From the NCBI GenBank assembly GCA_017440935.1, contig JAFSAO010000014.1, positions 62,001 to 126,000 on the forward strand: a DNA stretch of 64,000 bases. The letters are read 5' to 3'. This DNA is from Opitutales bacterium. GTDB lineage: Bacteria; Verrucomicrobiota; Verrucomicrobiia; Opitutales; UBA953. Numbering within the stretch: the first letter of the stretch is position 1; every line of letters begins with the position of its first letter. Under the pieces are notes generated by a model that ran no database searches, was not told the DNA's origin, and saw only the letters and a program-made list of their open reading frames with translations. A program made the position numbers and the translations under genes. This document shows, piece by piece, positions 22,530 through 27,930 of the stretch.

Positions 22530-25500
22530 TTATTTTCTGGAAGGGAAGCGGGGCGGGCGGCGGTAGGGTGCCGAAGCATCGACGCGGTAACCGAGGACGG
22601 CGGGATCTTTGATGAGCGCAGCAAATTTTTCTACGGGGAAAAATGTTTTTACGTGCTCGGGAAGATCCGCTTCGATAAGGGCGCCGTCCGGTTGGCGGTG
22701 GGCGAGCGCAATGCGTGTTCCGCCGGAATTTTCGCCGACGTGGCGGAGAAGTTTGTTTTCGATAAACGCGGGAACGTCTTCCTCGGGATTGAGCACGAAG
22801 ATGACTTTTTTCATCAGGCGCGGAAGCTGTTGCTCCATCGGGGAAATGCGGGAAACCTGCAGGCTCCACTCTTCCTGACGGTCGCGATAACGCAGTTCGC
22901 AGTCGAGAATGACGTGTGCGCCGTCTTTGATATTTTCTCCGTGTTCCTGATAGTCGGACGGGAAACAGACGAGGTGATACTTGTCGCGGCGCGTTTCCAC
23001 GGCGAACGTGGCGAACTTGCGGTTGTCCGCCGTGAATTTTATCGCGATATCTTCGATGATGCCGCAGATACGCACGTTGTGGCTTCGGTCGGCTTTGGAA
23101 AGTTTGCAGTCTTCGAGCGAACCGGAGAAAGTTGCGAGTGCTTGATCGAGCCCCGCGTAAATGTTGAGCGGATGCCCGGAGAGGTAAAGCCCGAGCAGTT
23201 CTTTTTCCTGACGGAGTTTTTCCGCCGGAGACATCGGATTGCCGCTACAGTTCATGTGGTCTTTTGCCGTGCGGCGGTCGTCCAAGATACCGAGTTCCAT
23301 CGTAAAATCGTCTTCGCCCGTATTTTTTTGAAGAAAATCGCGGACGGAGTTGATGGAGGCTTGGATGTGGTTGCGGTCGTAATAATCCTCGCAGTTGTCG
23401 AATCCGCCGGTAAAGATGAGCGTGTCGAGGCTTCGCCCGATGTTTAAATTGGCTTCTTTGGTTTCTCCGGTTTCTTCGTTTTTTACGATGATGCGTTTGG
23501 TGCAGAGGCGCTCCATGAAGTCAACGAAACCCTTGTATTTCCCGCCGCGGGAACGCTCGTCGATAATCGCTTGCGCAACTTTTTCTCCCAAGCCTTTGAG
23601 CGCGCGGAAGCCGAAGTGGATGGCGTTGTTTGCGGGATCGGGCGTGAAAAATACGTTGGAAGTGTTGACGTTCGGCCCGAGCACGCGGATGCCCATGCTT
23701 TCGCATTCGGCGATAACGCCGAGCATTTTTTCCGGATTACTCATTTCGGAGTCGAGCACCGCCGCCATGTATTCGACGGGATAATGCGCTTTGAGGTAGC
23801 CGGTTTGGTAGGCGACGTAGGCGTAGCAGACGGAGTGCGATTTGTTAAAAGCGTATTCGGCAAACGCCGTCCAGTCTTTCCAGATTTTTTCGATAAGTTC
23901 TTCCGCCTTCTTTTGGTTGCCTTTGAGCGGCTCCATGAAGCGAGGATTTTCGAGGCACCCGCGATGGAATTTCTCTTGGAGCTTTGCCATTGTGTCGAGC
24001 TGCTTTTTCCCCATCGCTTTGCGAAGGACGTCGGATTCTCCGCGCGTAAATTGCCCCAGCTCGCGGGAAAGCAACATGACCTGTTCCTGATAAACCGTGA
24101 TCCCGTAAGTATCTTTGAGGTAACGCTCCATCAGAGGATGATCGTAAACAATGCGGTCGTCCCCGTGCTTGCGGCGGATAAATTGCGGAATGTATTCCAT
24201 CGGACCCGGGCGGTAGAGCGCGTTCATCGCGACGAGGTCTTCAAAGCGGTTCGGCTTGAGCAGGCGCAAATATTTTTTCATTCCGCCGGATTCAAATTGG
24301 AAAAGCCCGGTCGTTTCACCGCGTGCAAAAACGCCGAAAGTTTCATGGTCGTCGAGCGGGATTTCGTTGATTTCAAATTCAATTCCTTTTGCCGCTTTGA
24401 CGTTGGCGAGGCAGTTTTTCAGAATCGTGAGCGTTTTCAGCCCGAGAAAGTCCATCTTGAGCAAGCCGATAGGTTCGACAAAGTGCCCGTCGTATTGCGT
24501 GGTGAGCAGATTGTCGTCGGGCGTGGGCATGACGGGAATCGTTTCAATCAGCGGGTCTCGGGAAATGAGCGTCCCGCAGGCGTGAACCCCGGTTTGGCGG
24601 ATGGAACCGTCGAGCGCTTCTGCAAAATTGAGCGTGCTGACGATGAGTTTGTCGTTGGAATTACGTTCTTCGCGTAATTGCGGGCTTTCCGCCATCGCCG
24701 CGTTCATCGTGATTTTCGGTTTCGCGGGAACGAGTTTCGCGAGGCGATTGGCTTCGGCAAGCGGTAAATCAAGCACGCGTGCGACGTCCTTAATCGCCAT
24801 GCGCGGTGCCATACTGCCGAATGTGACGATGTGCGCAACGTGGTCTTGCCCGTATTTTCGAGAAACCCATTCCAGCACCTTCCCGCGGCCTTCGTCGTCG
24901 AAGTCGATATCGATATCCGGCATCGAAATACGGTCGGGATTCAAAAATCGCTCGAACAGCAAGTCATACTTCATCGGGTTAATTCCCGTGATTCCGAGGC
25001 AGTAGGCGACGACGCTTCCGGCGGCACTCCCGCGCCCGGGACCGACAAGAACCCCCATTTCGCGCGCGGCGGCGATAAAGTCCTGCACGATGAGGAAGTA
25101 GCCCGGAAAGCCCATCGTTTTAATCGTCGAGAGCTCGAAATCGATACGTTCCTGCGCGTCGTCGGGAATGTTGCCGTTCCAGCGGCGTTGTGCGCCCTGC
25201 ATCGTGAGGTGCCGCAGGTAATCGTATTCAAAGCGGATGCGGTAAACTTTTTCCGCGCCGCCGAGCTTTTCGTAGCGGTCGCCGAACTCGGCGCGCAATT
25301 CGTCCTCGCTCAGGCGTTCCCGCAACTCGGCTTCCGTGCCGAAACTTTCCGGAATCGGGAACACCGGCATAATCGGCGGCGAATCCAGATTGTATTCTTC
25401 GATTTTGTTGGCAACTTCCAGCGTGTTCAGGAGAGTTTCCGGATGGTCGTGGAAAAGCGCCTTCATTTCCGCCGTTGTTTTGAACCATTCTTGGCGCGTG

Positions 25501-26303
25501 TAGCGCAGGCGGTTCTCGTCCGTCACTTTTTTCCCGGAATTGAGGCAGAGCAAAATGTCGTGTGCGTCCGCGTCTTTTTCGTTCAGGAAATGGACGTCGT
25601 TGGTCGCGACCACTTTGATTCCGAGTTTTTCCGCGAGTTTAAAAATTCCTTTTTCCGCGCGGAGCTGGCGCTCATAAACGTCTCGCGTGTCGTCCGAAAC
25701 ATTGTTCGGATGGCGCATCACTTCGAGGTAAAAATCGTCGCCGAAAACGCCCTGGAACCAGCGTGCCGCCGCTTCCGCTCCCGCTTCGTCTCCGGCGAGA
25801 ATTTTTGAGGGAATTTCCCCCGCAATACACGCGGAGCAGACAATTAGTCCTTCGTGATATTTTTCCAAAATTTCTTTGTCGATGCGCGGGCGGTAGTAGT
25901 TGCCTTCCGTCCAGCCGAGAGAAATCAGACGCACGAGGTTGCGGTAACCGGTGCGGTTTTTCGCGAGTAAAATGAGGTGATTCCCCGAGCGGTCGATTTT
26001 TTCGTCCATTCCCGCGGGAATGTTTTTCCCTTTGTCAAAGCGCGTGCGCCGCGCAACGTAGGCTTCGCACCCGAGAATCGGCTTAATCTTCGCTTTGCGG
26101 CAGGTGTCGTAAAAAAGTTTTATCCCGAACATGTTCCCGTGGTCGGTCAGCGCGACTGCCGCCATGCCGTCTTCCTTCGCTTTCGCCGCCAGTTTCTTGA
26201 TATTCGTCGCACCGTCCAATAGCGAGAATTGCGAGTGGACGTGCAGGTGGACGAAATCGCTGAACGGCGTTTTTGCGGGAGCAACTTGTTGGGCGTCGGA
26301 CAT
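22530..26303 (-). CDS. dnaE: DNA polymerase III alpha subunit
   Basis: 1257 residues, the replicative polymerase of the DnaE1 class. The N-terminal PHP domain has FVHLHVHSQFSLLDG and ALTDHGNMFG. The catalytic aspartates lie in SMPDIDIDFDDEGRGKV, followed by FGSMAPRMAIKDVARVL and GAGRGSAAGSVV-type motifs (here GPGRGSAAGSVVAYC). An OB fold (NVRICGIIEDI) is near residue 1060, and the last 80 residues are a loosely conserved tail. It stands alone. It carries only four CGGGAACG copies in 3.8 kb, fewer than average. Confidence 0.97.
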   Translation of the reverse strand: MSDAQQVAPAKTPFSDFVHLHVHSQFSLLDGATNIKKLAAKAKEDGMAAVALTDHGNMFGIKLFYDTCRKAKIKPILGCEAYVARRTRFDKGKNIPAGMDEKIDRSGNHLILLAKNRTGYRNLVRLISLGWTEGNYYRPRIDKEILEKYHEGLIVCSACIAGEIPSKILAGDEAGAEAAARWFQGVFGDDFYLEVMRHPNNVSDDTRDVYERQLRAEKGIFKLAEKLGIKVVATNDVHFLNEKDADAHDILLCLNSGKKVTDENRLRYTRQEWFKTTAEMKALFHDHPETLLNTLEVANKIEEYNLDSPPIMPVFPIPESFGTEAELRERLSEDELRAEFGDRYEKLGGAEKVYRIRFEYDYLRHLTMQGAQRRWNGNIPDDAQERIDFELSTIKTMGFPGYFLIVQDFIAAAREMGVLVGPGRGSAAGSVVAYCLGITGINPMKYDLLFERFLNPDRISMPDIDIDFDDEGRGKVLEWVSRKYGQDHVAHIVTFGSMAPRMAIKDVARVLDLPLAEANRLAKLVPAKPKITMNAAMAESPQLREERNSNDKLIVSTLNFAEALDGSIRQTGVHACGTLISRDPLIETIPVMPTPDDNLLTTQYDGHFVEPIGLLKMDFLGLKTLTILKNCLANVKAAKGIEFEINEIPLDDHETFGVFARGETTGLFQFESGGMKKYLRLLKPNRFEDLVAMNALYRPGPMEYIPQFIRRKHGDDRIVYDHPLMERYLKDTYGITVYQEQVMLLSRELGQFTRGESDVLRKAMGKKQLDTMAKLQEKFHRGCLENPRFMEPLKGNQKKAEELIEKIWKDWTAFAEYAFNKSHSVCYAYVAYQTGYLKAHYPVEYMAAVLDSEMSNPEKMLGVIAECESMGIRVLGPNVNTSNVFFTPDPANNAIHFGFRALKGLGEKVAQAIIDERSRGGKYKGFVDFMERLCTKRIIVKNEETGETKEANLNIGRSLDTLIFTGGFDNCEDYYDRNHIQASINSVRDFLQKNTGEDDFTMELGILDDRRTAKDHMNCSGNPMSPAEKLRQEKELLGLYLSGHPLNIYAGLDQALATFSGSLEDCKLSKADRSHNVRICGIIEDIAIKFTADNRKFATFAVETRRDKYHLVCFPSDYQEHGENIKDGAHVILDCELRYRDRQEEWSLQVSRISPMEQQLPRLMKKVIFVLNPEEDVPAFIENKLLRHVGENSGGTRIALAHRQPDGALIEADLPEHVKTFFPVEKFAALIKDPAVLGYRVDASAPYRRPPRFPSRK

Positions 26304-26512: not shown

Positions 26513-27037
26513 CTAGTGCTTGCCGCAGGTGCAATGCCCGCAGGAACCGTCACCCTTACAGCCGTGAACTTTCCGGTGGTGTTCCTTTACGTCAAGCGGA
26601 CGCAGGCTTAGCGCTTCCAGCATCGTTCCCGCGAAAAACGCCGAGTTCGCTCCCGCCGAAACACACAGCGCCAGCGCTCCCGCCGACATCGCCGCGCAGT
26701 TTGCCGAAAGGCGAATCAGCGTTTTCGGCAACAAAATTCGCGCCACCGCAACCACGCGCACGAACTCAAAAACGCCAATCGACGGCGTTCCCGCGTCGAT
26801 TTCGACAACTTCCGGATGCTCTTCCGCATTTGCCAGCGCCACAAGCTGTTCCAAGCATTTTTCCGTCGCGTCGTTAGACTCAATTACCACCGTCGCCACC
26901 GTTTCCGGATGGTCCCACGCTTCCACCTGAATCGCATCGGAAACTTGCGACTGTTGGTGAATTTCCTGGGCAAAATAAATCAGCGTCGGGAGCGGATTGG
27001 CGTAAACTTTGCGAACGTCTTCAAGGTAGTAAATCAT
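26513..27037 (-). CDS. BioB-like protein lacking the radical-SAM core (stand-alone BATS domain, Cys-rich tail)
   Basis: 174 residues from ATG 27037. Residues 1-38 (YLEDVRKVYANPLPTLIYFA, then QEIHQQ) match the N-terminus of biotin synthase. Residues 60-144 (LEQLVALANAEEHPEVVEID, AGTP, VARILLPKTLIRLSANCAAM, LCVSAGANSAFF) match its C-terminal BATS segment. The roughly 170 residues between them in BioB, with the CxxxCxxC iron-sulfur site and SAM-binding core, are absent. The end has CKGDGSCGHCTCGKH, with Cys160, 166, 169 and 171 plus histidines, a likely metal site. It cannot be a biotin synthase as such. The frame is open and codon use normal, so it may be a real regulator or metal-binding protein, or a relic. 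Confidence 0.65.
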   Translation of the reverse strand: MIYYLEDVRKVYANPLPTLIYFAQEIHQQSQVSDAIQVEAWDHPETVATVVIESNDATEKCLEQLVALANAEEHPEVVEIDAGTPSIGVFEFVRVVAVARILLPKTLIRLSANCAAMSAGALALCVSAGANSAFFAGTMLEALSLRPLDVKEHHRKVHGCKGDGSCGHCTCGKH

Positions 27038-27097
27038 AGTTTTTCGACAATAATACGAAATACGAAATCTGGAAAACGAAAATTTCCCGAACAAAGT

Positions 27098-27213: not shown

Positions 27214-27930
27214 ATGAAAAAATACTTTATAACTTCCCTTCTTTTCGCCGCGGGAACGCTCTTCGGAAATGCGTTTACCGTAAGCACCGCAAAAGGTTAT
27301 GTGTCGCTGGATGACGGAAAATTGACGACACCTGACGGTGTTACTCTCAGCGGAGACACGACGAATGGATACACGCTTTCTGTTGGCTCCGGGGATTGGG
27401 TTGGCGTTTCTGATGCTGGAAATCGAGACGATGTAACTTTTGCGGTAACAATCGACTTTACGAAAGTTTCTTTCGGTACGCAGGATATGCGCTTTTTTCA
27501 CCTTGATGGAAGCAAAGGAGATTTGGGCATCGGGTGGAATGTTGAAACCGGATGCATCACGGGAACTTGGAATAACCGTTATGATTTTTCGATTTCCACA
27601 CTCAAAGCTGAAGGCGTTGTTACGTTTGCGTTTACCATGGGCGACGGCGGATCTCGTATTTACAAGGATTCGGAAAAAGGATTTTGGACGAACACGAGCC
27701 TGAAAGGAGACCTTGGAACAGTATCTGGCTTGGTAGTTAACGCATCTGTAGCCTCGGCATTGGATAATCTTGTCGTTTGGGACAAGGACATTGCTTTCAA
27801 CGGCGGAAATAGCAGTGTCGCATCCGCGCTTGCTGCGTCGACATCGTTGATTCCGGAGCCGTCGGCGTTTGGTTTGCTTGCGGGCGTGGGAGCGTTGGCG
27901 CTTGTAACGTCGCGTCGCCGCCGTAAATAA
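27214..27930 (+). CDS. PEP-CTERM sorted surface protein 3
   Basis: 238 residues. A signal peptide (MKKYFITSLLFAAGTLFGNA, with AAGT encoded by GCGGGAACG) is followed by a beta-rich body with LamG-like features (NVETGCITGTWNNRYDFSIS, ALDNLVVWDKDI). It ends IPEPSAFGLLAG, hydrophobic stretch, RRRRK, the exosortase sorting tag. It is probably anchored or released at the surface as matrix. TTTTTAAAC lies 20 bases upstream of the ATG and there is no Shine-Dalgarno. Confidence 0.87.
   Translation: MKKYFITSLLFAAGTLFGNAFTVSTAKGYVSLDDGKLTTPDGVTLSGDTTNGYTLSVGSGDWVGVSDAGNRDDVTFAVTIDFTKVSFGTQDMRFFHLDGSKGDLGIGWNVETGCITGTWNNRYDFSISTLKAEGVVTFAFTMGDGGSRIYKDSEKGFWTNTSLKGDLGTVSGLVVNASVASALDNLVVWDKDIAFNGGNSSVASALAASTSLIPEPSAFGLLAGVGALALVTSRRRRK

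Follow-up and report, generated by a model that had tools for sequence, protein, structure and literature searches.

The 64,000-nucleotide stretch of DNA analysed here (the window) encodes a short BioB-like protein, sBioB, in which the N-terminal helices of biotin synthase (BioB) run directly into its last beta/alpha units and a Cys/His tail, the catalytic residues having been lost. sBioB is a non-catalytic BioB descendant maintained by selection, and the most economical view of it, to which we give about an even chance, is that of a repurposed pseudoenzyme whose retained function would be putative metal or Fe-S handling via the tail. The open reading frame specifies 174 amino acids, and its coordinates, frame, ATG start and TAG stop had been given correctly in the initial annotation. 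The gene and its parts are as follows.

26513-27037, minus strand: short BioB-like gene sBioB, an open reading frame from ATG to TAG; four further genomes of the genus have an orthologue.
26924-27037, minus strand: sBioB residues 1-38, BioB N-terminal helices (5-12 and 16-30) and start of strand 1, from the PDB match, alignment and model (dN/dS ~0.04).
26813-26923, minus strand: sBioB residues 39-75, in which the deletion junction is followed by strand 47-51 and helix 55-69 (where BioB has beta6/alpha6) and Cys61 and His74 are new, from alignments; the fastest-evolving part (dN/dS ~0.1 where estimable).
26618-26812, minus strand: sBioB residues 76-140, the BATS core made up of the final two beta/alpha units, with Arg109 and Cys125 kept, Asp81 for Asn222 and new Cys114, from PF06968 and the 1r30 alignment.
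26516-26560, minus strand: sBioB residues 160-174, the Cys/His tail CKGDGSCGHCTCGKH, with His153, His154 and His158 ahead of it; seen in five short forms and shared by HisS and the full-length BioB of the genus.

In a Pfam scan, residues 83-139 of sBioB matched the BATS domain (PF06968) at 30.1 bits, above the gathering cut-off of 22.2, and no other Pfam match, an FKBP-type domain included, rose above cut-off. Against the BioB family model TIGR00433 the protein scored 33.4 bits, far below the cut-off of 225, which places it outside that family. The whole sequence had a single PDB match, the C-terminal segment of E. coli BioB (1r30; E 8e-11), with a weak second segment pairing residues 5-38 with the BioB N-terminus. 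Aligned with full-length relatives, the protein opens with the N-terminal helices of BioB, which reach as far as the beginning of strand 1; three beta/alpha units follow, the last of the barrel (with strands at 47-51, 77-81 and 107-110 in the model), and then the tail. Two later loops are trimmed as well. The protein had been described as the N-terminal helix region joined to the BATS segment; the N-terminal match and PF06968 bear this out, but the retained part, with its three beta/alpha units, exceeds the BATS segment. The same alignment upheld the loss of the catalytic barrel with its CxxxCxxC motif: the motif is absent from all five short forms, and the NHNLDTS motif of BioB is also missing from sBioB. 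The [2Fe-2S] cluster of BioB is bound by Cys97, Cys128, Cys188 and Arg260 (PMC11099021). Alignment with full-length relatives shows the positions of the three cysteines to be deleted in sBioB, and Arg260 is kept as Arg109. Position 81, equivalent to Asn222 of E. coli BioB, which we take from the 1r30 structure to be a dethiobiotin contact, is Asp in each of the five short forms. Relative to BioB as known from TIGR00433 and PDB entries 1r30, 8vdw and 8vcw, sBioB is thus alike in its N-terminal helices, last three beta/alpha units, Arg260 equivalent and, in one genome of the genus, location beside dnaE, and differs in having neither strands 1-5, the CxxxCxxC motif nor the three [2Fe-2S] cysteines, and in the change of Asn222 to Asp. 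The BATS domain is found in BioB, ThiH, HydE and HydG and, to our knowledge, its known members combine it with a radical-SAM domain in one chain; sBioB resembles them in passing the PF06968 gathering score and differs in that its chain has no radical-SAM domain. In the open-access literature we found nothing relevant on truncated BioB or BATS-only proteins, "BATS domain" there mostly denoting the Atg14 domain.

An AlphaFold model of sBioB (21 sequences) was compact, with a pLDDT of 85.2 and a pTM of 0.83, the tail falling below 60. Superposed on E. coli BioB it gave a Z score of 16.2 and an rmsd of 1.7 over 147 residues, compared with Z scores of 11-13 for other BATS or radical-SAM relatives and 7 or less for unrelated folds; a Foldseek search with a first, poorer model returned no match below 0.001. 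The model supports, but does not prove, a stable fold, since AlphaFold may have rebuilt the familiar fold of BioB.

sBioB is carried by gut bacteria of a single genus, probably Candidatus Spyradosoma. It was sampled through eight genomes, G000 (the one to which the window belongs) to G007, all metagenome-derived as far as seen. A search for the same architecture in relatives, as the initial annotation had proposed, found it in four other species of the genus, so that five of the eight genomes have the short form: G000, G005 (98% identity), G003 and G007 (87% each) and G001 (51%), the last recognized by neither Pfam (PF06968) nor NCBIfam. The remaining three (G002, G004 and G006) encode full-length BioB of 387-408 amino acids scoring 387-393 bits against TIGR00433. 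Elsewhere in the family most genomes have an ordinary BioB and about nine are without a match. The GTDB genome search for short forms used two N-terminal peptide patterns only, which remoter forms could escape. A full bioB had also been proposed as something to look for in the own genome; the BioB family model matches only the sBioB locus there, which excludes a frameshifted or split bioB.

The neighbours of sBioB are dnaE, recR and a PEP-CTERM-like gene, a gene order that gives no functional clue and no evident partner. Two features of the surroundings bear on the history of the gene.

22530-26303, minus strand: dnaE, which besides adjoining sBioB here is the neighbour of full-length bioB in G002 and of the short gene in G003, G005 and G007.
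27049-27088, minus strand: upstream element GGGAAATTT ... TTTCGTATTATT, separated from the ATG of sBioB by 11 bases.

Because dnaE adjoins the full-length bioB of G002 as well as sBioB in G000, G003, G005 and G007, bioB was deleted in place in that lineage. The upstream block is common to the same four short-form genomes and is partly present in G002 upstream of full-length bioB, and may be a promoter retained from bioB. The 12-base upstream element occurs once in the window, about the chance expectation, and a sigma-70 scan called no promoter on the strand of sBioB. As a separate observation, the PEP-CTERM-like gene between recR and sBioB (window 27214-27930) has an inverted counterpart in G005 (L037:6953-7651) of only 32% identity, the genes flanking it being 95-98% identical between G000 and G005; it is either a swapped cassette or a fast-evolving paralogue.

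Selection on sBioB was measured by pairwise codon maximum likelihood among G000, G005, G003 and G007. Values of dN/dS were 0.023 (G000-G005), 0.040 (G003-G007) and 0.050-0.076 (between those pairs), and omega=1 was rejected (2dlnL 86-138); the comparison genes gave 0.021-0.074 (dnaE), 0.047 (recR), 0.062 (dapA) and 0.084 (hemE). sBioB is therefore under strong purifying selection, about as strict as that on dnaE, recR and dapA. All estimable parts of the protein are constrained, the N-terminus, BATS core and tail at ~0.02-0.07 and the junction at ~0.1, besides one saturated estimate. In comparisons with G001, dS was saturated or nearly so, and dN/dS values involving that genome are rough. Orthologues in four other species, together with these ratios, exclude a chance open reading frame.

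Loss of the catalytic core goes together with loss of the adjoining steps of biotin synthesis. BioA was found above cut-off in all three genomes with full-length BioB and in none of the five with the short form, a perfect association between short form and missing BioA (Fisher p 0.018 for eight genomes, uncorrected for relatedness). BioD was above cut-off in G002 and G004, reached 71 bits in G006, under the 83-bit cut-off, and was above it in none of the five short-form genomes. Weaker BioA and BioD matches in the latter had scores typical of related families. A biotin/lipoyl carrier domain is encoded in all eight genomes, with an EAMKMN motif in those read, and the BioY biotin transporter was found in none of the eight. 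Since BioA and BioD are missing and the carrier domain is retained, the short-form bacteria are probably auxotrophic for biotin and continue to use it.

The five short forms have in common eleven residues absent from 16 full-length BioBs, and five of these (R61C, N81D, R114C, Q122L and G136A) fall at sites that hold one residue in all 16. Gains include Cys61 and Cys114 in the scaffold and His154 and His158 just before the tail. A tree of four concatenated markers (HisS and OadB-like, HemL-like and BioD-superfamily P-loop proteins, the last three named by sequence likeness only) joins G002 to the G000 group and unites G001 with G004 and G006. The four-marker alignment rejects a grouping of the short-form genomes (p-AU ~1e-76), and the bioB/sBioB gene alignment, of only 160 columns, rejects the marker topology (p-AU 0.0002). 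The latter value and the eleven exclusive residues disfavour two independent truncations. These patterns suggest a single origin of the short form which, because the markers reject the grouping of its bearers, would have to have been followed either by transfer to the G001 lineage or by an old duplication and differential loss. Convergence, in which the shared residues would reflect a common new constraint, is less likely. In G001, HisS is 85% identical to that of G000 (L089), compared with 67-77% for its other markers. This suggests that genes have been exchanged between the two lineages, whose sBioB differs as well.

The tail, which ends sBioB as C-x5-C-GH-C-T-C-GKH, is invariant in the five short forms but for K/R changes and is the best conserved block of the protein: 20 of the 23 residues from 152 on are invariant, compared with 58 of 151 elsewhere, and this holds as far as the 51%-identical G001 protein. 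The initial annotation had regarded it as an addition to sBioB. Full-length BioB of the genus already bears the same tail (CKGDGSC-G[HN]-CTCG), which rules out its gain with the truncation; it therefore predates that event. A profile of the tail had exactly one other clear match per genome, in all eight genomes of the genus, and this was histidyl-tRNA synthetase (HisS; TIGR00442, 327 bits), the C-terminus of which reads C[KRH]GDGxCx(1-2)[HN]CTCG in all eight (L002:1495-2895, minus strand, and L084-L091). Thirty other genomes had no clear match, the weak ones having E values of 0.03 or worse, and the restriction of clear matches to BioB/sBioB and HisS of the genus rules out a widespread tag. 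Since every one of the eight genomes also has the tail on HisS, and none of the 30 others does, the function of the tail is not tied to biotin. We know of no role of a Cys tail in HisS. BioBs of other genera in the family have other Cys-rich ends, such as SCGQGGCGCK. Beyond the tail, full-length BioB of the genus and of G009 has one more conserved motif, GTWxR-x-C with Cys/His (L009, L008 and L031), which is lost in the short forms.

By analogy, the tail looks like a putative metal-binding appendage. SlyD has a Cys/His-rich, metal-binding C-terminal tail (PMC7055735) and a link to Fe-S (PMC10653786); its likeness to sBioB is one of kind only, a flexible Cys/His-rich tail on a folded domain from which metal binding by sBioB might be argued by analogy, and sBioB differs in having no FKBP-type prolyl isomerase domain. 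On full-length BioB, the tail may at one time have supported the sacrificial [2Fe-2S] cluster. BsaP, a Cys-containing auxiliary protein of mycobacterial BioB that is fused to BioB in Pseudonocardia, has been proposed to serve the Fe-S cluster of that enzyme (PMC11099021), and this small Cys module beside or fused to BioB would be a precedent for such an original role. The cysteines of BsaP (Cys44, 47 and 64) are, by description, spaced otherwise than those of the sBioB tail, which moreover outlives the enzyme and is also found on HisS.

Taken in order, we infer that the biotin pathway was lost first and that the radical-SAM part (barrel strands 1-5) was then deleted in place, the N-terminal helices and three beta/alpha units being kept as a small folded scaffold for the flexible Cys/His tail that full-length BioB would already have carried. 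The retained job would most likely depend on that tail, which would coordinate either a thiophilic metal such as Zn, Ni, Fe or Cu or a labile Fe-S species, with help from the Cys61, Cys114, His154 and His158 gained in the short form; sBioB would store what is bound, transfer it or sense its redox state. The proposal of a stand-alone BATS protein with a metal-linked role is accordingly sustained as to the conserved gene and its best conserved block, the tail; its metal part is a putative one. Against a reading centred on the tail stands the scaffold, which is under strong selection that a mere tag carrier would not need, and the main function may lie instead in a partner protein, or in a ligand, that the scaffold binds.

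The first of these two, a partner, is possible if on balance unlikely: BioB would have had a second, non-catalytic partner, such as HisS or a protein of Fe-S assembly, the surface for which the fragment would keep, with help from the tail and with metal secondary. The N-terminal helices and BATS core being as constrained as the tail, and the tail being common to exactly two proteins per genome, favour such an interaction; gene order, on the other hand, points to no partner, and common tails do not demonstrate contact. As for a ligand, descent from BioB, retention of Arg109 (Arg260), the biotin carrier domain with EAMKMN that is still encoded and the failure to find BioY in any of the eight genomes would fit an sBioB that has kept the ability to bind biotin, dethiobiotin or some related ligand for scavenging or regulation in a biotin auxotroph. 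We nevertheless judge this improbable, because the barrel half with the SAM and cluster ligands is gone, Asn222 has become Asp, four residues that do not vary among 16 full-length BioBs (Arg61, Arg114, Gln122 and Gly136) have been substituted, and BioA and BioD above cut-off are absent from the short-form genomes; on the same grounds, the suggestion that sBioB binds a biotin or thiamine intermediate found no support. Half-barrels can assemble, and with Arg109 and the BATS strands preserved the missing half might be encoded elsewhere and pair with sBioB as a working radical-SAM enzyme, a diverged partner from another radical-SAM family being conceivable; the match of the BioB family model to the sBioB locus only in the own genome and the absence of BioA and BioD above cut-off make this very improbable. 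Hardly any credence is left for a decaying bioB deletion open by chance, a fossil as the initial annotation had also considered: bioA and bioD were indeed lost together with the catalytic core and the G001 copy is strongly diverged (~50% identity), but the proposed check of synonymous against non-synonymous change revealed no relaxed selection (dN/dS 0.02-0.08, omega=1 rejected), and all five frames are open, the four close ones without indels relative to each other, when only 0.45% of copies stay stop-free in a neutral simulation with 0.6 substitutions per site.

A pseudoenzyme with a metal-handling tail could be part of a wider picture, which we put forward as speculative and unlikely in full: a new small metal- or Fe-S-handling protein would have arisen from a radical-SAM enzyme by excision of a barrel half, moved from species to species within a single gut genus and been paired with the same-tailed HisS as a two-protein metal or redox circuit. 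Annotation pipelines would call sBioB a bioB fragment or miss it altogether. Pathway loss in gut bacteria usually leads to gene loss; here the core of a vitamin enzyme was excised and the remainder selected about as strongly as dnaE, with new cysteines and histidines fixed, and a Cys/His tail is found on two unrelated proteins. The conservation of sBioB points to a second function of BioB that outlived biotin synthesis.
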